Part shown: positions 6,946 to 55,579 of the stretch, piece by piece
How positions within the stretch are numbered: the stretch's first letter is position 1
Layout of the letters: each line of letters starts with the position of its first letter
NCBI GenBank assembly: GCA_039680605.1
Contig: JBDKTA010000009.1
Location: 124,001-188,000, forward strand
DNA: 64,000 nucleotides
Reading direction: 5' to 3'
DNA from: Planctomycetaceae bacterium
Lineage (GTDB): Bacteria; Planctomycetota; Phycisphaerae; SM23-33
The notes under the pieces: generated by a model
Database searches by the model: none
Seen by the model: the letters and a program-made list of their open reading frames with translations, nothing else
What the model was told of the DNA's origin: nothing
Program-made: the position numbers and the translations under genes

Positions 6946-9216
6946 GTGACGGTGGACCTTCTGAGCAATCTCAACGACGCCCAGTTTCAGGCTGTCACGC
7001 ACGTGGACGGGCCGCTGCTGGTGCTGGCCGGCGCGGGCTCGGGCAAGACGCGCGTTATCACGCACCGCGTGGCGTATATCATCGACCAGGGCGTCGATCC
7101 GCGCAGCGTGCTGGCGATCACCTTCACCAATAAGGCCGCCGGCGAGATGCGCGACCGCGTGGCCGCCCTGGGCGTGCCCTACGGGGCGACGGTCTCGACG
7201 TTCCATGCCCTCTGCGCGCGGCTGCTGCGGGAGTTCGCCGCCTACGCCGGCGTCAGCAACAACTACACCATCTACGACCGCGACGACCAGCTCCGCATCG
7301 TCAAGCAGGCGATGGAAAAGGCCTCCTGCGACGTCGAACGCTATACGCCGGGCGCCATCCACTCCGTCATCTCCAACGCCAAGAACGCCCTGCAGGCCCC
7401 GTCGGTCGTCGCGGCGGAGGCCGGAGCCAACCGCTTCCGAAAAGCGGCTGCCGACGTGTACGCCCAGTACGAATCGCTGCTGGCTGAGAACAATGCCCTG
7501 GACTTCGACGACCTGCTGATGCGGATGGCCTTCGTCCTGCGGGACAACCCCCAGGTGCGACAGACCCTCTCCGACCGCTACCGCTACGTCCTCATTGACG
7601 AGTACCAGGACACCAACCACGCGCAGTACCTGCTGGCCGACGCCATCGCCAAGCCCCACGGAAACATCTGCGTCACCGGCGACCCCGACCAGAGCATCTA
7701 CGCCTGGCGCGGCGCCGACATCAACAATATCCTCGAGTTCGAGCGAGACTACCCCCAGGCCCTGGTCGTGCGCCTGGAAGAGAACTATCGCTCGACCGCC
7801 CCGATCCTGGCGGCGGCCTCGCGGCTGATCGCCCACAACCACCAGCGCAAAAAGAAAGAGCTCTTCACCCGCCGCGGCGGCGGGGCCGACGTACACGTGC
7901 TCTCGACCGATGATGAGCACGCCGAGGCGCGCGAGATCGTCAAGCGCGTCCGCGGCGCCATCGACGCCGGACGCAGCGGCGGCGACATCGCCGTCTTCTA
8001 CCGCGTCAACAGCCTCTCGCGCGTGCTCGAAGATGCGATGATGAAGGCCGCAGTCCCCTACCGCGTCGCTCGCGGCGTGGAGTTCTACAACCGCAAGGAA
8101 ATCAAGGACGTGCTGGCGTACCTGCGCCTGCTGGTCAATCCCGCTGACGACCTCTCCTGCCTGCGCGTCATCAATATCCCCGCCCGGCGCATCGGCACAA
8201 CGACCATCGACCGGCTGGCGGAGATGGCCGCGACCAGGAACCTCTCGCTCATCGACGCCTGCCGTCTGGCCGACCAGGCGGGCTTGCAGCAACCCACGGC
8301 CGCTCGCGTGCGGGCCTTCGCGGCGCTGATCGACGAGTTGACGGCGGCTATCGACCAACCCGTCGCCGACGTGGTGCGCGATGTCATCACCCGCAGCGGC
8401 CTGGAGGCGATGTTGCACGAAGGGCAGGAAGAAACCGCCCAGGCCCGCTCCAACGTGGGCGAGTTGATCAGCGCTGCGGCCGAGTTCGACTCTGTCAGCG
8501 AAGGCGGCGGCCTGTCGGACTATCTGCACCAGGTGGCGTTGGTCAGCGACGTAGACCGCCTGGACGAATCGGGCGGGGCTGTCACGCTGATGACGCTGCA
8601 CGCGGCCAAGGGGCTGGAGTTTCCGGTGGTCTTTATCGCCGGCTGCGAGGAGGGCCTGCTGCCCTTCCAGCGGATGGAGAAGGTTGCGGGGATGGGGATG
8701 GAGTCGGCCCTGAACGTGGTGGACCTGGAGGAGGAGCGGCGGCTGGCGTTTGTGGGGATGACGCGGGCGAAGGAGGAGTTGTATCTCAGCCACGCGGTGC
8801 AGCGCATGGTGCGGGGCATGACCTCGCGCCAAGTGCCCTCGCCGTTCCTGGGCGAGCTGTCCGGCCCCAGCGTGACGCATGATGACCTCACGACCCCGCC
8901 GGACCTGCAGCCGCGGCGCCCGTCGCGCGGCGGGTATTATGATGATGTCGAGAACCGCCGGCGCATCGAGGCCTTCAGCGACGATCAGGACAGCCGGGGG
9001 TATGAAGAAGACGCCGATGAGACAGGCCACGGCGAAGGCTTTCCGCCCGAGTACGAGTTCCTCCAGAGCGGCAGTCTGGTGCGGCATCCCAAGTTCGGCG
9101 TCGGGCGAGTGGTGCAGATCAAGCAGCCTTGGCCCGAGACGCGAGCGATCATCGACTTCCAGACGTTCGGCCGCAAAACCATCGTCCTCCGCGTGGTGCC
9201 GCTGAAGGTGCTGTAA
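6946..9216 (+). CDS. UvrD/PcrA-type superfamily 1 DNA helicase
   Basis: This 756-residue protein has the full SF1A motif set: Walker A GAGSGKT, motif Ia ITFTNKAAGEM, motif II DEYQDTN, motif III GDPDQSIYAWRGA, motif IV LEENYRS, motif V TLHAAKGLEFPVVFIAG and motif VI VGMTRAKEEL. The C-terminal tail (VRHPKFGVGRVVQI) matches the PcrA-type RNA polymerase-contacting domain. It is a 3'-to-5' DNA translocase for repair and for clearing stalled complexes. The start is uncertain: GTG codons at 6946 and 6952 lie in front of DLLSNLNDAQ and no clear Shine-Dalgarno is present. Length is normal for PcrA. Confidence 0.95.
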   Translation: MTVDLLSNLNDAQFQAVTHVDGPLLVLAGAGSGKTRVITHRVAYIIDQGVDPRSVLAITFTNKAAGEMRDRVAALGVPYGATVSTFHALCARLLREFAAYAGVSNNYTIYDRDDQLRIVKQAMEKASCDVERYTPGAIHSVISNAKNALQAPSVVAAEAGANRFRKAAADVYAQYESLLAENNALDFDDLLMRMAFVLRDNPQVRQTLSDRYRYVLIDEYQDTNHAQYLLADAIAKPHGNICVTGDPDQSIYAWRGADINNILEFERDYPQALVVRLEENYRSTAPILAAASRLIAHNHQRKKKELFTRRGGGADVHVLSTDDEHAEAREIVKRVRGAIDAGRSGGDIAVFYRVNSLSRVLEDAMMKAAVPYRVARGVEFYNRKEIKDVLAYLRLLVNPADDLSCLRVINIPARRIGTTTIDRLAEMAATRNLSLIDACRLADQAGLQQPTAARVRAFAALIDELTAAIDQPVADVVRDVITRSGLEAMLHEGQEETAQARSNVGELISAAAEFDSVSEGGGLSDYLHQVALVSDVDRLDESGGAVTLMTLHAAKGLEFPVVFIAGCEEGLLPFQRMEKVAGMGMESALNVVDLEEERRLAFVGMTRAKEELYLSHAVQRMVRGMTSRQVPSPFLGELSGPSVTHDDLTTPPDLQPRRPSRGGYYDDVENRRRIEAFSDDQDSRGYEEDADETGHGEGFPPEYEFLQSGSLVRHPKFGVGRVVQIKQPWPETRAIIDFQTFGRKTIVLRVVPLKVL

Positions 9217-9231
9217 CGACGGGATATATTT

Positions 9232-9322
9232 ACCGCAGAGGTCGCTGAGGTCGCAGAGAAAGAATTTGGTGAAATCTTCCGTGCTGAGTCTTCCTCAGCG
9301 TCCTCTGCGACCTCTGCGGTGA
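9232..9322. repeat. Inverted repeat of CGCAGAGGTCGC type
   Basis: Arms at 9232-9261 and 9293-9322 begin with ACCGCAGAGGTCGC and its complement; internal mismatches are few. It fills the gap between two converging genes, where it could serve as a two-way terminator, although no long T-tract follows. A shorter related sequence (CGCAGAGGTCGCAAAGGACG) is at 50926-50945 after a histidine kinase gene. Confidence 0.75.
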
Positions 9323-9335
9323 ATAATTACCCGCG

Positions 9336-10652
9336 TTACGCCTTGACGATCTTGTTCTTTCCGCCTTTGACCTTCTTGGTCGCGTTTCGGGTGTCGATGA
9401 CCAGTTGGGCGCTGTCGACGATGGCCTGGTAATCGTACGAGCTGTGGTCGGTGCTGATGACCACCGCGTCATATGCAGCCAGCATTTTGGCGGAGAGCTT
9501 CTTGGAGGTCTTCTTGAGGTCGTGCTCGCGCATCTTGTGAGTGCGGGGCACGTGCGGGTCGTTGTAGTCGACCTTGGCGCCGCGATATTCCAGCAGCTCG
9601 ATCAGCTCCAGCGAGGGGCTCTCGCGAACGTCGTCGATATCCTTCTTATACGCCAGGCCCAGCACCAGCACCTTCGAGCCTTTGAGGGCCTTGCCGCGCC
9701 AGTTCAGGGCGTACATCAGCTTGTTGATGACGTACTGCGGCATCGAGACGTTGATTTCGCCGGCCAGCTCGATGAACCGCGTGCTCATGCCGTACTGGCG
9801 GGCCTTCCACGACAGGTAGAACGGGTCGATCGGAATGCAGTGCCCGCCCAGGCCCGGGCCTGGATAGAACGCCGTGAAACCGAAGGGTTTGGTCGAGGCC
9901 GCACGGATCACTTCCCAGATGTCGATCCCCATGCGGTCGAAGAGGATCTTCAGCTCGTTGACCATCGCGATATTGACGCAGCGATAGGTGTTCTCGAGGA
10001 TCTTGCACGCCTCGGCGGCCTCGCAACTGCTGACGGGCACGACCGTCTCCAGCGCTTGCTCGTAGCATGCTACAGCCGCGTCAAGCGAGGCTTTGTCGAA
10101 CCCGCCGACGACCTTGGGAATAGTTCGCGTGGAAAAGTTCTTATTGCCCGGGTCTTCTCGTTCGGGCGAGAAGGCCAGGTAGAAGTCCTTGCCCGCCTTG
10201 AGACCGCCGGCCTCGAGGACCGGAAGCATGACCTCGCGCGTGGTCCCGGGATAGGTGGTGGACTCCAGGACGATCAACTGGCCTTTTCGCAGCGTCTTGG
10301 CGATGGCGGCGGCGGTGGCCTCGATATAGGTCATATCCGGTTCCCGCATCTTCGTCAGCGGCGTGGGCACGCAGATGAGGATGCAGTCGGCCTCTTTCAT
10401 GCGGGCAAAATCGGTGGTCGGCTCGAAGAGGCCGCCGGCGATCATCTTCTTGACGACGGCCGAGGGGATGTGCTCGATGTAGCTCTTGCCGGCCTTGAGG
10501 GCCTTGACCTTTTCCGGATCGACGTCGAACCCCATGACGTTGACGCCTGAACCGGTGAATTCCCGCACCAGTGGCAGCCCCACATAACCCAGACCTACCA
10601 CGCCGACGGTGGCCTTCTTGCTTCTGATCTTGTTCACCAGCTCTTTGGACAT
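9336..10652 (-). CDS. Nucleotide-sugar dehydrogenase (UDP-GlcNAc/UDP-ManNAc 6-dehydrogenase type)
   Basis: The 438-residue enzyme should oxidise C6 of a UDP-sugar to the uronic acid with two NAD+, for surface polysaccharide synthesis. The N-terminal Rossmann motif is GVVGLGYVGLPLV (residues 16-28). The catalytic cysteine is in GPGLGGHCIPIDP, and FSPEREDPGN is typical of the WbpA/TviB branch. The C-terminal UDP-binding domain includes VLGLAYKKDIDDVRESP. The start at 10652 is chosen because the frame matches the family N-terminus. The exact sugar (GlcNAc or ManNAc derivative) cannot be fixed from sequence. No other polysaccharide genes are adjacent. Confidence 0.9.
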   Translation of the reverse strand: MSKELVNKIRSKKATVGVVGLGYVGLPLVREFTGSGVNVMGFDVDPEKVKALKAGKSYIEHIPSAVVKKMIAGGLFEPTTDFARMKEADCILICVPTPLTKMREPDMTYIEATAAAIAKTLRKGQLIVLESTTYPGTTREVMLPVLEAGGLKAGKDFYLAFSPEREDPGNKNFSTRTIPKVVGGFDKASLDAAVACYEQALETVVPVSSCEAAEACKILENTYRCVNIAMVNELKILFDRMGIDIWEVIRAASTKPFGFTAFYPGPGLGGHCIPIDPFYLSWKARQYGMSTRFIELAGEINVSMPQYVINKLMYALNWRGKALKGSKVLVLGLAYKKDIDDVRESPSLELIELLEYRGAKVDYNDPHVPRTHKMREHDLKKTSKKLSAKMLAAYDAVVISTDHSSYDYQAIVDSAQLVIDTRNATKKVKGGKNKIVKA

Positions 10653-12313: not shown

Positions 12314-12347
12314 ATCGGGAGCGGGGAGAGCGGGATTACGCGGACTG

Positions 12348-12369
12348 GGGTATTGAATTGACTACAGTA
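12348..12369 (+). repeat. IS terminal inverted repeat, left
   Basis: This 22-bp end begins GGGTATTGAATTGACTAC and is the perfect reverse complement of 13348-13369. Confidence 0.88.
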
Positions 12370-12373
12370 ACCA

Positions 12374-13321
12374 CTACAGCTTGGGCTGCCTCCCCCGGAC
12401 GTGTTGGATCAGCGACCGGTAGGGCGCCGGGGCCACTTGTGCAGCCTGCTGAACCAAACGATAGAACAGCTTGCCGCGGTAATTAGAGGTCCGGCGGTAA
12501 AACCGGAAGGCGAACTCATCGAGGTAGTAGTCCAGATGATCAGCACTGATCGCGCCTTGATGCGTCCCCAGTAGCCATCGCTTCAGCAGAGAGATGACGC
12601 GGTGGGCGTACGGAAGTAGATCCTCCTCCGCGCCAGGCACGTCCAGTCGGCCCTGCTTGCCAGGCTGATGCTTGTAGCCCAAGGACCTCAAGCCGCTGTA
12701 TCCGGACCATCCATCGGTCTCCACAGCGCTACCGGGTTCCACACTGTCTGTGACGAAGGCGTGAAGACTGGTCGCCGACGCGTCCTGTATCCGGCGCATG
12801 CGGACTCGTCCACATTTGCGACCATCTCGCTCTACCGCAACCCCGATGAGTGCCTTTTTGCCTGGTTCTCGGCCTTGGCGCCCTTCCTCCAGGCCGCCCC
12901 AATATGTTTCATCTACCTGAACCAGCCCGTGCAGACGATCTCGGCCGGGACGAACCATGGCCCGCCGTAACTTATGCAACCATGCCCAAGCCGTTCGGTA
13001 GCTGCCCAGCCCCAACACGCGCTGCAGGCCCAAGGCGCTGGTGCCATTCTTCTGGCTGGTCACCCACCACATGGCGCGAAACCACGTGCTCAATGGCTTG
13101 TGGGTGTCCTGGAAGATGGTGCCGGCCGTTACCGACGCCTGAAAACCACACTCGGGACAGATCAGCAAGTCGCTCTTTCTTCGCCAGTATCGTCGCCCAT
13201 CGCACCGAGGGCAGACAAAGCCGGTCGGCCAGCGGAGCTCGAACAGATACTGCCAGCACTGTTGCGGAGTGCCGAACTGCTCCTCAAACTCTTCCAGCGA
13301 CTTTGGATAATGCTCTTCCAT
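12374..13321 (-). CDS. IS1595 family transposase
   Basis: The 315-residue transposase has an N-terminal zinc ribbon (CPRC near residue 37, CPEC near 55) and an ISXO2-like catalytic domain. The first acidic residue lies in VQVDETYWGG, the second in VETDGWSGY, and the third region is SLLKRWLLGTHQGAIS with FAFRFYRR downstream. The frame is intact from ATG to stop, so the element may still be active. It fills nearly the whole insertion sequence; its stop is only 5 bp from the left inverted repeat. Confidence 0.93.
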   Translation of the reverse strand: MEEHYPKSLEEFEEQFGTPQQCWQYLFELRWPTGFVCPRCDGRRYWRRKSDLLICPECGFQASVTAGTIFQDTHKPLSTWFRAMWWVTSQKNGTSALGLQRVLGLGSYRTAWAWLHKLRRAMVRPGRDRLHGLVQVDETYWGGLEEGRQGREPGKKALIGVAVERDGRKCGRVRMRRIQDASATSLHAFVTDSVEPGSAVETDGWSGYSGLRSLGYKHQPGKQGRLDVPGAEEDLLPYAHRVISLLKRWLLGTHQGAISADHLDYYLDEFAFRFYRRTSNYRGKLFYRLVQQAAQVAPAPYRSLIQHVRGRQPKL

Positions 13322-13347
13322 TGTCGCTCGACACTACAGGTGGGGTG

Positions 13348-13369
13348 TACTGTAGTCAATTCAATACCC
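13348..13369 (-). repeat. IS terminal inverted repeat, right
   Basis: This is the perfect 22-bp inverse of the left end. It is followed, after GGA, by the 8-bp target duplication TACGCGGA. Confidence 0.88.
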
Positions 13370-13462
13370 GGATACGCGGATTAAGAAGATTAAGAGGATT
13401 GGGAAGAAGCAAGAACCCGGTCCAAAGATCTCCTCTGCGGTCGAGCTCTTGCTTTGTTAGCG

Positions 13463-20124: not shown

Positions 20125-20288
20125 GAGGGGGGAAAGTCGCGGCGGAGGCACCAAGTATTTATCAAAGCCGTTGGCTGGCTTTGATGAATACTTGCGCCCA
20201 GAGGAGGAACCAGCCCTAAATGAAGAAGTAATTCAAGAAAACGAATTACTTCTTCATTTAGTGCCTCCGCCGCGACTTTCCCCCCTGA
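20125..20288. repeat. Structured multi-hairpin repeat, copy 1
   Basis: The outer arms, 20126-20152 and 20261-20288, are nearly perfect complements (GGGGGGAAAGTCGCGGCGG continuing to GAGGCAC). Inside are two hairpins: A (20153-20194, AAGTATTTATCAAAGCC with its complement) and B (20216-20261, CTAAATGAAGAAGTAATTC with its complement). The whole can fold as a three-way junction. Related copies are at 28508-28613 and 55427-55579. The right arm also encodes the tail of the adjacent UPF0316-like protein. Confidence 0.85.
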
Positions 20289-20907
20289 CTGAGGCGGTGC
20301 CCGGGCAGCCATCCGGTCCGGCGGCCTGGCGGAGCGGTCGCACCTGCGGCTGGGGTTTGCAGCGGCGAAGCTGGCGCCAACTGCCGTTGGCCCGGCGGAC
20401 GTCTTCCACCGTGTAGAACGCCTGGGGATTGAAGGACTTGACCACATCGAGCACTTCAGGCAGGTCTCCGCGGCGGATCACGCTGAAGATCACGTTGACT
20501 TTGCCCAGGGCCCCCTGGGCGTCGATGCACGTCACGCGGTGGTTTCGCCGGCGGAGCTCTTCAACCAACTCCTCGCCCCGTACCTGCGGGATCACCCGCA
20601 AGATGATCGTCCCCATCGCCAGCTTTTCTTCGATCATCAACCCGACGAACGTCCCGAGCCCGTACCCGCCGGCATAGGCGAAAAAGCAGATGACATTGTC
20701 GAGGTTTCGCACCACCTGGGCGATGGCCGTGATCCAGATCAGCACCTCAAAGAACCCCACCACCGGCGCCAGCAGTTTCATCCCGCGCGAAAGAAACAGC
20801 ACCCGCAGCGTCCCGAGGCTGACATCCACCACCCGCGCGGCAAATATCAGAACCGGAAGCACCCACCACCAATTGCTGTCACCCTGAAAAAACTCGTAAA
20901 GGTTCAT
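20254..20907 (-). CDS. UPF0316/DUF2179 family membrane protein
   Basis: The 217-residue protein has three hydrophobic segments in residues ~10-95 (VLPVLIFAARVVDVSLGTLR, VVGFFEVLIWITAIAQVV, FFAYAGGYGLGTFVGLMIEE) and a soluble C-terminal DUF2179-like domain (EELRRRNHRVTCIDAQGALG, NPQAFYTVEDVR). This fits the UPF0316 family of unknown function. The last ~12 residues (ESRGGGTK) are encoded by the right arm of the structured repeat, so the tail is probably not functional. ATG 20907 has CAGGAT upstream. Confidence 0.82.
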   Translation of the reverse strand: MNLYEFFQGDSNWWWVLPVLIFAARVVDVSLGTLRVLFLSRGMKLLAPVVGFFEVLIWITAIAQVVRNLDNVICFFAYAGGYGLGTFVGLMIEEKLAMGTIILRVIPQVRGEELVEELRRRNHRVTCIDAQGALGKVNVIFSVIRRGDLPEVLDVVKSFNPQAFYTVEDVRRANGSWRQLRRCKPQPQVRPLRQAAGPDGCPGTASVRGESRGGGTK

Positions 20908-21084
20908 AGTTGATCCTGCCCCCCAGCAGCGCGCCCGCCCCGCCATCATTATTATCGACCCGCCGATCCGATGCGGCCAATAAATGCAACGTCATGAGCC
21001 TCGGCGGAGTTTGCGGAAAACCAGAATCTTGCCGATGCTGTCATCGGGACTGTCCCGTTGTAATCCCGCCCGTGGCGTGGCAGA

Positions 21085-24000: not shown

Positions 24001-24783
24001 ACCGTGCGCGTCAAGGGCAAGATCGACCGCGTCGATCGCGTGAGCTTCGAAGGGCACGAGGGGCTGATGGTCGTCGACTACAAGACCGGCGCCCTGCCGC
24101 GACCCGACGCCATCAAGGCCGCCCAGAACGTGCAACTGCCCGTCTACATCAAAGCCGCCGAGGCGCTGCTGGGGGCCAAATGCATCGGCGGCCTGTTTGA
24201 CCACGTCAGCGGCGGCAAGGTCCGACGCCTGTTTTTCGCCGAGATCGCCTGCTCGCGGGGCAAGTACAAGATCAACGAGGCCTTCGCTGAGCAACTCGAT
24301 GAGGCCCTGGCGGCCATCGGGCGCACGGTCGAGTCCATCCGCGCTGGGCGATTCGACCTGATGCCCGCCGGCGGGTGCGACTACTGCGACTATCGCCAGA
24401 TCTGCCAGTACGTCGAGGCGCGGCAGGAGGTTAAAGCTGCCGCCGGGGAGCATGGGCGGGACGCCCATGCCACACAGCAAGAGCATGGGCGGGACGCCCA
24501 TGCCACACTGCAGGAGGGTGCCACGCACAACTCCGTTGTGCGTGTCCCTGACCGTTCCGCCGACGACTCCCAAGAGCATGGGCGAGACGCCCATGCCACA
24601 CAGCAAGAGCATGGGCGGGACGCCCATGCCACACAGCAAGAGCATGGGCGAGACGCCCATGCCACACAGCAAGAGCATGGGCGGGACGCCCATGCCACAA
24701 AGCAAGAGCATGGGCGGGACGCCCATGCCACACAGCAAGAGCATGGGCGGGACGCCCATGCCACGGGGGAGGGTCCCCCATGA
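21085..24783 (+). CDS. addB: AddB-like ATP-dependent nuclease subunit
   Basis: The protein has 1232 residues. Residues 26-33 (GPAGSGKT) are a Walker A in an otherwise degraded SF1 helicase core, as in AddB. The C-terminal PD-(D/E)XK nuclease has VVDYKTG near residue 997. A single cysteine (FGLCPWRFF, ~826) plus CDYCDYRQIC (~1097) fits the four-cysteine iron-sulfur site of AddB. It should pair with the next gene product to resect DNA ends for RecA-dependent repair. Unusual: the last ~115 residues are a tandem array of EHGRDAHATQQ units made by a 33-bp palindromic DNA repeat, and another palindrome sits in frame at 22163-22186. ATGA overlap with the next gene. Confidence 0.85.
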   Translation: MSNVDRGACDILGRVGGSSCRVVLLRGPAGSGKTRACLEFYRSFEPTSTRRCLYLVPNAPAGSSVRRQLLSAGGGVLVAPMVRTFAELAQGVLAASPSPGRLMSGPARMILLRRIVDELSASRKLEALESVVDTPGVVAALDRAIAELKRAAIEPETLAQAVAGGSAKCRDLLNVYRLYQDHLLRHGLYDVEGQMWQVRDVLTSADGGFGDRGSAGLRPCAPRHPETSLPGLETVAAVAVDGFTDFTPTQLAILSLLARRSERILITLPWAQDGRERMWHWTARTLNKIRETFGGDLEEIALDAPAGGGGLAELAGKLFTADAPPMASPGALRVVAAPGTEAEVWAVAQAVKKLLVGADSQAGKPVPPGSIAVLARSLEAYRPTIARVFAACDIPIAHPSGPLTDEPIVRFLLAAAAIAPRQEFADVLAVLRSSYFRPQALGDFTPATAAVAEMIIRQGNVLEGRAAYARAVKSYAARAARAEADNEDGEEPAVRLGPLDCSRDEIVNAGEMLERLFDLTDAAATSGIAKLVDELQLRAAACGHADTLLVARDLRALAALEGALGELEGAAAGIVAVGLAPSRHGTLPLPHLRSALGAAAAKPARTESLVDVLDVLDARAVRYEHVFILGLGEGQFPPASAESPLAGEADRTLWAARGIELDSRSDLTAREMLLFYLAISRAEQSLTLTYQHTDAGGRAGSRGAFLETLLECIDSPSESKIPPGAFVPPQAEIACRQDAVNAGIGGLFDSSSPPAGGALAWAAANERAAVSLAARGIWARHRRWLSAPCDAYDGRIGDPSLLAALGKHFGEDHAFSASQLNTFGLCPWRFFGKYVLQLEPLEEPQRRIEPVERGIFCHEVLCRVMMRLRDGGAVRLAAVGADALAAALTDAVAQASDVLGAKYAAYPRLWELQRQRMHQDIGDYLAARSSQDALAAESVAFELGFGLDARAAEGPADPAGTNEPVSIATPTGTVRVKGKIDRVDRVSFEGHEGLMVVDYKTGALPRPDAIKAAQNVQLPVYIKAAEALLGAKCIGGLFDHVSGGKVRRLFFAEIACSRGKYKINEAFAEQLDEALAAIGRTVESIRAGRFDLMPAGGCDYCDYRQICQYVEARQEVKAAAGEHGRDAHATQQEHGRDAHATLQEGATHNSVVRVPDRSADDSQEHGRDAHATQQEHGRDAHATQQEHGRDAHATQQEHGRDAHATKQEHGRDAHATQQEHGRDAHATGEGPP
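22163..22186. repeat. CACAGGCTTTCC-type palindrome inside addB-like gene
   Basis: The 24-bp unit contains the complement of CACAGGCTTTCCAGCCTGTG and lies in frame, encoding SQAGKPVP near residue 360. The same unit occurs in the addA-like gene (26208-26262) and in the lemA-htpX spacer (58247-58299). Confidence 0.75.
24448..24771. repeat. Tandem array of a 33-bp palindromic unit
   Basis: Eight units of GAGCATGGGCGGGACGCC continuing CATGCCACACAGCAA occur at 24448, 24481, 24574, 24607, 24640, 24673, 24706 and 24739. Each contains the palindrome GCATGGGCG..CGCCCATGC. Units alternate between GCGGGAC and GCGAGAC. After the second unit, 60 bp intervenes and includes another dispersed repeat (24517-24548). 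The period is a multiple of three, so the addB-like frame stays open. Confidence 0.92.
24517..24548. repeat. GCACAACTCCGTTGTGC-type repeat, copy 1
   Basis: A 32-bp unit containing the hairpin GCACAACTCCGTTGTGC is identical to 50959-50990, where it lies between a histidine kinase gene and the LarA-like gene. Here it is inside the addB-like coding frame and inside the 33-bp array. Confidence 0.85.
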
Positions 24784-27700
24784 GCGAGGCGGCGCCCAAA
24801 CTGACCGCGGTGCAGGCCCAGGCCGTTGAGAACGGCCGACAGAGCCTGGCGCTATCCAGCGGGGCCGGCTGCGGCAAGACGCTCGTGCTGGCGCTGCGGT
24901 TCACGCGGTTGCTTGAAGAACACCCCGACCCCGCCAACGCCCTGGGGCGCCTGGTGGCTATCACGTTCACCGAGAAAGCCGCCGCCGAGATGCGCCAGCG
25001 CGTGCGGCGAGAGCTGACCAAGGCCGCCCACCGCACCACCGGCGAGGCGCGCCGGCAGTACCGCCAGTGGATCTCGCAACTCCCCCAGGCGCGCATCTCG
25101 ACGATCCACAGCTTCTGCTCGGCGCTGCTGCGCAGCCGGGCCATCGAGGCGGGAGTCGATCCGGATTTTGCCGTCTGCGCCGACGAGATGCTCAGCAGGT
25201 CGATGATCGCCGACGCCGCACAGCAGGCGGTGCTCGAGGCCGTCGAGGGCGGCGGGCAGGAGATCGCCGACCTGCTGGCGGCCTGCACGTTCCAGCGCGT
25301 GCTCGACCAGGTGCGAGACCTCGTCGACATGCGCAGCCGCTTCAACCCTGCAGATTTCACCGACCCGGCCATCACGCTGAAGCGATGGCAGGACGCCCTG
25401 CCGCGGCTTCGCAGCGCCGCCTGGCAGAGGCTGGAGAATGACGCGGTCATCCGGACAGCCCTGGCGGAGCTGGCGACGTTCCATTGCACCTCGCCGGCGG
25501 ACAAACTGCTGGCATTTCACGAGCAGGCGCTGGAGCTGGGTCAGCGGCTGGTGGGCGACGCCGCGTCGCGCACACCCGAGACGTTCGAGCAGATGGCGGC
25601 AGTGCGCCCCGTGGCGGTTGGTTCCGATAAAAGCTGGGGCGGCGAAAAAGGCGCCGCCAAGGCCGTGCGAGACCAGATCAAGCTGCTGCGCGAGCGGCTC
25701 GAAACGGAATACGAGATTTTCTCGCGAGAGATCGGTCCGGCCGACAAGCAGGCGGCGGAACTGCTGGCCACGCTGGCGCAGGCCGCGGTAGCGGCGACGA
25801 AAATCTACGACGCCCGCAAGCGCGCCCGGGGATTGCTGGACTTCGAAGACCTGCTTATCCGCACTGAGGCGCTGCTGGCAGCCGACGCGTCCGTGCGCGA
25901 CAGCCTGGCCCGCCAGGCGGACCAGTACCTCGTCGATGAGTGCCAGGACACCGACGCGCTGCAGATGCGGCTGTTGAACTGGCTGATCTGCGGCCGCGGC
26001 GAGGGCGGGGCGGTTCCCGAGGGCAAGCTGTTCCTGGTAGGCGACGCCAAGCAGAGCATCTATCGCTTCCGGGGGGCGCAGGTGGAGGTTTTCGAGCAGC
26101 TCTGCACGCGCCTGGGGCGCGAGGGCAACAAGAGCTTGGACATTTCCTTCCGCACGCACCGCGCGGGGCTGGAGTTCGTCAACCATCTCTTCGCTCCGCT
26201 GCTGGAAGTGGCACAGGCTTTCCAGCCTGTGTCGGCATCACAGCCTGGAAAGGCTGTGCCACAGTACGTGCCCGTCAAGGCCAATCGAAAGGAACTGCCG
26301 CCCGGGCCTTCAGTCGAGATTCTGCTGGCCGCGCCCCAGGACGGCGGCGACGACGCCCGCACCATGGCCCAGGCCCAGGCGGTGCTCACGGCCAGGCGAA
26401 TCCACCAGATGATCGCGAACCAGGAAAGGCGCGTCTGGGACCGCCAGGCCAACGACTGGCGGGCGGTGCGCCCCGGCGACATCGCCATCCTCTTCGCCCG
26501 CATGACGCCCAGCCCGGACTTCGAGCGGGCCCTGGCCGCGTGCGACGTCCCCTACTACGTCGTGGCCGGCACGGGCTTCTTCCGACAGCAGGAGGTTTTC
26601 GACCTGCTCAACGCCCTGCGCGTCATCGACAATCCCTTCGACGACGTCTCGCTGATGGGCGTGCTCCGCAGCAGCATGTTCGCCCTGGACGACAACGCCC
26701 TGATGCACATCGCCTCGCGCTGCAGCCGCCCGTACCTACACGCGTTGCAGGCGGCGGACCTGTCCGATGCCCTGCCGCCCGGTGACGCCGCCGCGCTGCG
26801 GACGGCTGTCACGTGCATCACCCGCCTGCATGCAGCCAAGGACGCGATGGCCATCGATGCGATGATCGGCGAGCTGCTGGGCGCGACCGGATTCGAAGCC
26901 TCGCTGCTGGCCCAGGGACGCGGCAGCCGCCCCCTGGGCAACCTGAGGATGCTGATCGACATGGCCCGGCGGGCCTCGTCCGACGGGATGAGCCTGGCCG
27001 CCTTCATCGCCCAGGCCGGCGAGATGATCCTCGACGACTCGCGCTACGAGCAGGCGGCGGTGGCGGCGGAAGAGCAGGACGTCGTTCGCCTGATGACAAT
27101 CCACAAGGCCAAGGGGCTGGAGTTCCCCGTGGTGATCGTTCCGGACCTCAGTTCCGGCAGCCGCCCCTCGACCGCCGCCGTTCTGGGACGCGCCGATCTG
27201 GGCCTGACGTGCAAACCGCCCCAGCCCGATGACGGCGAAGAAGACGCGCCCACCCCGCTGATGTACGACCTGGCCCGGCGACTCGAAGCGGCGGAAGATC
27301 GACGCGAGGATCTGCGCCGACTCTACGTCGCCGTCACGCGCCACCAGGACCACCTGATCCTCGTCGGCGCCGATGTCCGCAGCGAGAGCGGGCAGTTCAA
27401 ACCCTCCTCCAGTCCGCTGGCCGAGATGGACTCGGTGCTGGGCATCGCCGCGGCGATCGACTCGGGCCAACAGACGCTGCCTTACGCCGGCGGGTTCCAA
27501 GCCAGCGTTGCCAGCCAGGCGGCGGGGGCGATGCCCCGGATAAAACCGGCGGCTCGCAAGGGGACGGCCCTGCTGGCGCAGTCGGCGAATGGGGATGATT
27601 TGGCGGCAAGAGTTCTTGACGCCGCCGGAGGGGAGAGTCTCGCCGACACGGCGGCTGAGAAACGGCCGCCATCTGGAGTTCCGGGGCTGCTGGGGGTCCT

Positions 27701-28508: not shown

Positions 28509-28613
28509 TGCGGGGAAAGTCGCGCCGTTTCCATCTCTGGGCGCAAGTATTCATCAAAGCCAAACAGCGGCTTTGATAAATACTTGGTGCCTCCGCCGCG
28601 ACTTTCCCCGCAT
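28508..28613. repeat. Structured multi-hairpin repeat, copy 2
   Basis: The outer stem is a perfect 17-bp pair (ATGCGGGGAAAGTCGCG at 28508-28524 and its complement at 28597-28613). Inside is hairpin A (AAGTATTCATCAAAGCC with its complement). Hairpin B of the other copies is missing, and the left inner arm is replaced by unrelated sequence. It starts at the last base of the addA-like stop codon. Confidence 0.85.
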
Positions 28614-28635
28614 GACTGAGGCATTATAAAACCCG

Positions 28636-51007: not shown

Positions 51008-52231
51008 ATGTTCACGAAAGTGTTTCAACCTGCCGCTTCGAAAACCACTGATGTGGATATCCCCGCTGTCGTCGCGCGGGCAGTCGCCGCTCTGGGCAAG
51101 GTCGGCGCCCTGACGCTGCTGGTCAACGACCCCCAGCGCGCCACCGACAGCGGCGCGATCCTGCGCGCCCTGCCAGAACACGTCGATCCAGCCCGAATCC
51201 GGATCCTCGTGGCAACCGGTTCGCACAAGTTTCCAGTTTCAGACCAGGCTGCTTTTGAGCGATCGCTTCTGGACGGACTTTCAGTGGAGCAGGTGCAGTG
51301 GCACGACGGGGGCAGCGCCTCGCTGCGGCCCGTCGCCGGAGCATGGCGCGTTCATCCCTGGCTGCTCGACGAGAGGCCGCTGCTGGCTGTCGGAAGCGTC
51401 GAGCCCCACTACTTCGCCGGGTTTACCGGCGCACACAAGACCGCCACCATCGGCTGTGCCGCCGTTGAGGACATCACCGCCAATCACCGCCACGCGGTCA
51501 GCCCACGCTGCCGCCCCTGCCGCATCGACGACAATCCCGTCCACGAAGGCATCGCCGGCATGCTCGCGGCCCTGACTGAACTGAGGCCGGTGCAGGCAAT
51601 CAACCTCGTGCAGGTCGGCCGCACCATCGCCGACGCCCAGACCGGCTCGCCCCTGGAGGCGCTGCCGCTGGCCGCCCCCGCCGCCATGAATGCTTTCTGT
51701 TGCCAGGCGCCCAAACTCGCCGACGCCATCGTCGCCCAGGTCGAAGGGCCCCTGGGCGTCAGCCTCTACCAGGCCGACAAGGGCATCAAGAACACCGAGT
51801 GGGCCCTGCGCGAGGGCGGGGCGTTGATTCTCGAAGCCCCCTGCCCCAAAGGCATCGGCCAGCACCAGTTCACCAACGTGCTCAAGCGCGCCGCGAGCTA
51901 TGACGAGGCCTGCGCCGTCGTCGAAAAAGACGGTTATCGGCTTGGCGACCACAAGGCCCTTCGCCTGCGATACCTGACCGACAGGAAATATCGTAACGTC
52001 AGGCTGATGATCGTCTCGCCGGGCTTGACCGACGAAGACGCCGCCCTGCTGGGCGCAACGAGATACGCCTGCGTCGGCGATGCCCTGAAAGCCGCCGGCG
52101 TCGATGCGTCGCGCAATACTGCCTACTGCGTCAAAGATGCAGGAAACGTCTGTCTCGTCGTAGCGTTCGGGGAAGTTACGTCCACGAATGTCACGAATTG
52201 CACGAATGGGAGAAACGGGATAATGGAATGA
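51008..52231 (+). CDS. LarA-like (DUF2088) nickel-dependent racemase family protein
   Basis: The 407-residue protein has the two-domain LarA layout. N-terminal GSHKFP and VEPHYFAGFTGAHKTATIGC with VEDITANH match the family's H-x-AG-(S/T)-G and PG-like motifs. LarA enzymes use a nickel-pincer cofactor to racemise or epimerise 2-hydroxy acids. The usual SGGRKxxxPG is here TGAHKTATIG, so substrate and cofactor use may differ. No larBCE genes are in the window. The final ~17 residues (STNVTNCTNGRNGIME) are encoded by a repeat. Weak ribosome binding site; ATG 51008 fits the family start. Confidence 0.8.
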   Translation: MFTKVFQPAASKTTDVDIPAVVARAVAALGKVGALTLLVNDPQRATDSGAILRALPEHVDPARIRILVATGSHKFPVSDQAAFERSLLDGLSVEQVQWHDGGSASLRPVAGAWRVHPWLLDERPLLAVGSVEPHYFAGFTGAHKTATIGCAAVEDITANHRHAVSPRCRPCRIDDNPVHEGIAGMLAALTELRPVQAINLVQVGRTIADAQTGSPLEALPLAAPAAMNAFCCQAPKLADAIVAQVEGPLGVSLYQADKGIKNTEWALREGGALILEAPCPKGIGQHQFTNVLKRAASYDEACAVVEKDGYRLGDHKALRLRYLTDRKYRNVRLMIVSPGLTDEDAALLGATRYACVGDALKAAGVDASRNTAYCVKDAGNVCLVVAFGEVTSTNVTNCTNGRNGIME

Positions 52232-52332
52232 TGGAGTGATGGAATATTGGAGGGACAGGCGCATTCCGGCATTCCAGTCCCCTTCCCGGTCTTTTCCCCA
52301 TTAGTGTCATTCGTGACATTCGTGGACATAAC
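52175..52332. repeat. Inverted repeat of CACGAATGTCACGAAT type
   Basis: Arms at 52175-52198 and 52309-52332 match at 23 of 24 positions as complements. The left arm lies inside the 3' end of the LarA-like frame. The interior holds GGAATG/CATTCC units. This could terminate the LarA-like transcript. Confidence 0.8.
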
Positions 52333-52395
52333 TCTTTCCCCGCTTTCGTCTCTGCCCAATTTGACTTTAACCGGTAAAAAGGCTACCTTCCCGCC

Positions 52396-53777: not shown

Positions 53778-53935
53778 GCGAAAATCCGAAATCCCAAACA
53801 ACAAATCCGAAACAAGGAACAAAACCCAAAGAAACAATGTGGAGGCTCTTTCAGCCTTTTGTCTTTGTTGTCTTCTTATTGTTTGTCTTCCTGTTGTTTG
53901 TTTGTGGTTTGTTGTTTGTAGTTTCGGATTTTCGC
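53778..53935. repeat. Inverted repeat of AATCCGAAA type after the regulator gene
   Basis: Arms at 53778-53805 and 53908-53935 match at 25 of 28 positions as complements (left arm starts GCGAAAATCCGAAA). The interior is T- and G-rich on one strand. It separates two converging genes and could end transcripts from both sides. The gnd stop lies just beyond a second stem (TTCGCGAAGC with GCTTCGCGA). Confidence 0.7.
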
Positions 53936-55378: not shown

Positions 55379-55426
55379 GGCCGCCCCCTTTCCGCCCCAG
55401 TAATGATATCCCTTCAGTGACGGGCA

Positions 55427-55579
55427 GGGGAAAAGCCGCGGCGGAGGCACCAAGTATTCATCAAAGCCGTTGTGTGGCTTTGATGAATACTTGCCTTAAC
55501 CAACGGTAAATGGCCCTAAATGAAGAAGCAATTCACACAACGAATTGCTTCTTCATTTAGTGCCTCCGCCGCGGCTTTT
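55427..55579. repeat. Structured multi-hairpin repeat, copy 3
   Basis: Outer arms (AAAAGCCGCGGCGGAGGCAC at 55431-55450 and its complement at 55560-55579) are perfect. Inside are hairpin A (55452-55493, AAGTATTCATCAAAGCC) and hairpin B (55515-55560, CTAAATGAAGAAGCAATTC), as in copy 1. Compared with copy 1 the outer arms change AGTCGC to AGCCGC together on both sides. It lies between divergent gnd and the oxidoreductase gene. Confidence 0.88.

Follow-up and report, generated by a model that had tools for sequence, protein, structure and literature searches.

Correia/NEMIS, ERIC, QMITE and Chunjie elements are strongly folding type II miniature inverted-repeat transposable elements (MITEs) (PMC10969869, PMC2229807). 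The CIR elements of Caulobacter and Brucella consist of two long hairpins and a linker and are described without a closing 5'-3' stem (PMC2229807). The repeat family analysed here, from a planctomycete genome, resembles the type II MITEs in that its members are shorter than 500 bp, carry no gene, bear terminal inverted repeats, lie mostly between genes and fold stably; younger copies have target duplications, and some copies have lost their ends. It differs from them in its closed three-way junction, whose two inner hairpins are perfect, in having an outer-arm sequence that is replaced between genera while pairing is kept, and in arms that are conserved better than the tips. With CIR elements, compared by description, the family shares two long hairpins joined by a linker; however, the planctomycete element is closed by an outer stem of 19-22 bp.

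Three copies in the window

The window is the whole 64,000-nucleotide stretch of DNA that was analysed and lies in contig 9 of the 5.23-Mb assembly of the home genome. Three repeat copies, very far from chance, are present where a first-pass annotation had placed them, and a family model made from 31 genomic copies matches exactly these three window loci (E values of 5e-35, 8e-32 and 4e-11). The architecture comprises a tip, an outer arm, two perfect inner hairpins, A and B, with a free linker between them, the other arm and a second tip.

The structured core of copy 1 (20127-20285, plus strand), with hairpin A first, comprises the left outer arm AAAGTCGCGGCGGAGGCAC (20133-20151), hairpin A with an 18-bp stem and a 7-nt loop (20152-20194), hairpin B with an 18-bp stem and an 8-nt loop (20217-20260), and the right outer arm GTGCCTCCGCCGCGACTTT (20261-20279). 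Its right tip, TGACTGAGGCGGTGC, survives at 20286-20300 and its left tip is lost (locus L001; 4 mismatches on the right, 8 on the left). The copy folds at -111 kcal/mol versus a shuffled mean of -47.5 (z = -14.9), and none of 200 shuffles was as good, whether RNA or DNA folding parameters were used.

Copy 2 (28510-28611, minus strand) is inverted relative to copies 1 and 3. It retains hairpin A (28544-28586), a full outer arm (28587-28605) with a short partner (28516-28524), and the A-side tip ATAATGCCTCAGTCAT (28612-28627), all on the minus strand. It has no hairpin B, and one of its outer arms has lost half its length; a 17-bp closing stem is kept. Copy 2 is an internal-deletion derivative. 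The first-pass description, loss of B with retention of a 17-bp outer stem, stands, to which the inverted orientation and the shortened arm have to be added.

Copy 3 (core 55428-55579, plus strand) contains hairpin A (55451-55493) and hairpin B (55517-55559); its left tip, ATATCCCTTCAGTGACG, lies at 55406-55422 and its right tip is lost (locus L026). Tips are thus found outside the arms on the right of copies 1 and 2 and on the left of copy 3. The stems and compensated changes reported earlier for the outer arm and hairpin B are both real: in copy 3, C-G replaces T-A in the outer stem, a change shared with two more genomic copies, and C-G replaces T-A in hairpin B (GCAATTC/GAATTGC), which no other genomic copy shows. 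The earlier placement of all copies between genes is nearly correct, the exception being copy 1, whose right arm supplies the last codons of a DUF5698/DUF2179 gene (20254-20949).

The window holds other repeats. A long palindrome with GTAAC...GTTAC ends (9213-9339) shows no 8-bp duplication by eye; two further intergenic palindromes with arms of 42 and 44 bp (52174-52333 and 53778-53935) are unrelated to the family; and a 33-bp tandem repeat with GGGCGGGACGCCC (24412-24797) corresponds to the repeated EHGRDAHATQQ at the C-terminus of an AddB-like nuclease ORF ending at 24783.

Copy number and distribution

BLAST located 33 near full-length and 7 partial copies of 100-200 bp in the home genome (G000), about 40 in total, and a 13-base arm pattern occurs there 68 times, with no occurrence in the reversed control. 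Many genomic copies with covarying stems had been predicted, and this is what we find, with pair-preserving changes within the genome and above all between genera. The copies tested are all intergenic or overlap a gene end by ~26 nt, as judged by crude codon-usage gene calls. Their placement in divergent, tandem and convergent gaps roughly follows gap length, and their orientation relative to flanking genes is unbiased (7 versus 9 in tandem settings). An excess in divergent gaps that appeared strong against the window alone was discarded: once 20 more stretches of 20 kb were added to the window as background, the observed share was 46% and that expected by length 34.5% (p = 0.09).

A BLAST search of 59 relatives gave no DNA match to the family, and the home-genome arm was absent from the viral contigs and named genomes searched. 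A covariance-model search of 120 genomes yielded 20 matches in G023 (the metagenome-assembled genome, MAG, of Planctomycetales bacterium isolate CSMAG_1105) and 4 in G005, both from other genera of the host's family, and none in the remaining relatives. The hits that the G023 arm gave in viral contigs were dismissed as chance 17-mers. Within the searches made, the family is confined to three genera of one planctomycete family.

Element ends and target-site duplications

The extent given by the first-pass annotation is too short, as tips and 8-bp target duplications lie beyond the arms. Alignment of flanks in the home genome places GTAATGCCTCAGTYAYGGGG outside the arm on one side and CCCCRTAACTGAGGSATTAC on the other, also given as GTAATGCCTCAGT.../...ACTGAGGSATTAC, and the full element there measures ~190-197 bp. 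These tips, together with the adjoining arms, make up terminal inverted repeats (GTAANNNTTCAGCC-type in G023); the terminal repeat GTAATGCCTCAGTYAYGGGG is itself short and imperfect. We had first read the tips as a separate host palindrome, and the 8-bp duplications identified them as element ends. Among the seven home-genome copies with the best-preserved tips, four are flanked by direct repeats matching at 8/8 positions (CCCCTGAC, GCCAAACG, GCAGACGC and CCCGTGGC) and one by a 7/8 repeat (GCGCCGCA/GCGCCGGA). In G023, where the tips read GTAAGAGTTCAGCC... and ...GTGAATAGTTAC, 16 of 26 elements match at at least 7 of 8 flank bases versus 0.15% of mis-paired flanks, and flank identity is 0.78 at length 8 versus 0.27-0.36 at lengths 3-7 and 9-12. 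The repeats represent target-site duplications, and the units therefore inserted as mobile DNA. One or both tips are missing from about half of the home-genome copies, and most of the tail-less copies show no target duplication. A search for tips and duplications in the G005 copies found neither, so these copies are assigned to the family by their fold.

The G023 elements, 121 to 441 bp long, have the same tips, and hairpin A or B is missing from some short members that show good target duplications, indicating a modular interior. Some G023 elements (e.g. L164, L166, L184, L196) contain the extra palindromes CCTGCCTGCCGGCAGGCAGG and GGTGGCACGGTCAAGCC...GGCTTGACCGTGCCACC, which sit in the hairpin B loop or the linker and extend elements up to 441 bp. 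In the home genome, an element at contig 25:94099-94241 (L118:1500-1645) combines the same tips with a different hairpin interior containing GGGCGTCCCGCCC palindromes and has a 7/8 target duplication, read by eye (CCTGACGA/CCTGACAA); the shared tips suggest that one enzyme moves several cargoes. At contig 5:75881-76032 (L005), a 10-bp direct repeat, CTATCAGGCC, surrounds a copy without a right tip, a hint that an element truncated at one end was inserted.

The fold across genera

Within the home genome, pairing holds in 96.8% of cells and both partners are changed at four pairs, the high conservation leaving little power. The alignment of the three genera, made without fitting it to the structure, is decisive: both partners changed in 33 of 52 pairs, and pairing holds in 94.9% of cells versus 41-46% with partners slid; cells count sequences rather than events, the independent unit being the genus plus four differing G005 copies. 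From genus to genus the sequence turns over and the internal pairing persists. In the outer stem, 13 of 19 pairs changed and 99.5% are paired, with no G-U pairs despite the 13 changed pairs; in G005, hairpin A is poorly preserved. Changes on one side of a pair comprise 13 of G-U and 14 of A-C type, small counts that give no RNA strand signature.

Search for the mobilizing enzyme

IS66 elements have 20-30-bp repeats starting with GTAAGCG and make 8-bp direct repeats (PMC11946415). The tips of our elements also begin with GTAA and are flanked by 8-bp direct repeats; however, only GTAA is common to the two, and a search of both element-rich genomes, G000 and G023, found no IS66 domain. Among the movers compared, an IS66-like enzyme would best fit the tips and the 8-bp duplications, and we regard it as a candidate that is plausible but on balance doubtful. 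An IS66 partner was sought in G000, G023, G005 and 35 family genomes, where only one complete element had readable ends; this element, in G005, was rejected as its ends differ (GTGTCCGTTCC). The window itself contains a complete IS1595-family element (12345-13372; transposase on the minus strand, 12374-13321, PF12762) that is bounded by inverted repeats GGGTATTGAATTGACTACAGTA and has duplicated 8 bp of its target (TACGCGGA); the duplication length is alike, but its ends do not match the MITE tips. About 15 matches to Y1 (HUH) transposases, with no known target repeat assigned, were detected in the home genome, and the eight of these loci that were read have no convincing element end nearby. 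When the tips were used to search G023 for an autonomous element, none of the inspected hits was a transposase-bearing copy, and those without a covariance-model match are further members or derivatives of the family. No autonomous partner sharing the ends was found in these assemblies, of a kind (MAGs) that often misses IS copies; a full-length partner would be expected to have ends GTAANNNYTCAGYC.

Possible constraint after insertion

Among G023 elements whose duplication can still be recognised, the outer stem has 3 mispairs in 374 versus 16 mismatches in 160 for the duplicated target (p = 1e-6), and the left arm, counted without four copies that have replaced blocks, shows 0 changes in 440 sites versus 42 in 494 in the adjoining tip. 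Single-copy changes per site in the home genome, where the outer-stem figures were taken from alignment counts, amount to 0.08 in the outer stem, 0.28 in stem A, 0.35 in stem B and 0.62 in the linker (p = 0.005 for the outer stem versus stems A and B together). About half of the home-genome tips are indistinguishable from random sequence, and the arms are still intact. Near-frozen arms next to decaying tips and duplications suggest in-place selection, copy-to-copy homogenisation or a combination of the two. An assembly artefact, though conceivable in MAGs, is unlikely as the whole cause of arm constancy, since the contig names point to a k-mer of 141 and the arms are short beside it.

Discussion

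The family is short, has no transposase gene of its own, is dispersed in many copies and is flanked by target-site duplications that stand out in register and mis-pairing controls. We are confident that its members are MITEs and that the transposase moving them duplicates 8 bp, and the exact duplications bear out the first-pass suggestion of a non-autonomous, MITE-like mobile unit. The same annotation had offered a structured RNA as an alternative, in which the RNA fold is selected, as in a dispersed regulatory RNA or mRNA-processing signal, and mobility is secondary. The very stable fold, the strong pair-preserving change and the outer arms almost unmutated after insertion would agree with such an RNA, as would the observation that RNase III cuts Correia/NEMIS elements when these are transcribed (PMC10969869, PMC2229807). 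Yet the balance of G-U and A-C types, the lack of G-U pairs in the cross-genus outer stem, the unbiased orientation, the distribution over all gap types roughly by length and an Rfam search with no match at the gathering score all speak against it; RNA as the primary nature of the family is improbable, and a stand-alone RNA unlikely. Still less credible is the annotation's REP half, in which a RAYT (Y1) transposase would mobilise a palindrome of REP/BIME type: the family does share with REP/BIME systems its many intergenic palindromic copies, and Y1 matches are present in the home genome, but target duplication is not expected of Y1 transposases, and no Y1 gene was linked to the element at the loci read. 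REPs are hairpins of 20-40 bp tagged with GTAG/CGTC (PMC3733652), unlike an element of ~190 bp with three helices and GTAA/GTAT tips. Origin of the copies by duplication of larger segments or operons can practically be dismissed; we found no support for it, each copy has flanks of its own, and the target duplication measures exactly 8 bp.

What keeps the arms near perfect after insertion is a separate matter. Copy-to-copy gene conversion or arm-templated repair, in place of selection, may account for them, an explanation we hold tentatively: each genome has dozens of identical arms of 19-22 nt, and palindromes undergo templated correction. Against this, the arms are short for homologous conversion, and arm-templated repair by itself would maintain pairing without preserving the sequence of an arm, and yet the G023 left arm is unchanged. 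Alternatively, purifying selection might maintain the outer arm of every copy, with the inserted palindrome serving the host at the DNA level as a cruciform or protein-binding site, strand-symmetric and free of G-U pairs; we judge this rather unlikely.

For the MITE family, we envisage a DDE-type transposase, provided in trans, that works on the tips together with the arms next to them, and a source lineage that retains the nested fold, amplification either needing or tolerating it. After insertion, tips and target duplications decay, and the outer arms stay nearly perfect, presumably through in-place selection or copy homogenisation. The family is unusual in that its three-way fold is closed, its outer arm is exchanged between genera with pairing preserved, its interior is modular and its arms are nearly frozen once inserted.

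Target duplications and cross-genus covariation document a palindromic MITE family in uncultured planctomycetes. The target duplication also acts as a clock that separates pre-insertion from post-insertion constraint, making it testable whether structured MITEs, once landed, are retained for a function. Were selection on every copy to prove true, the family would be a genome-wide exapted structural element and not inert debris.
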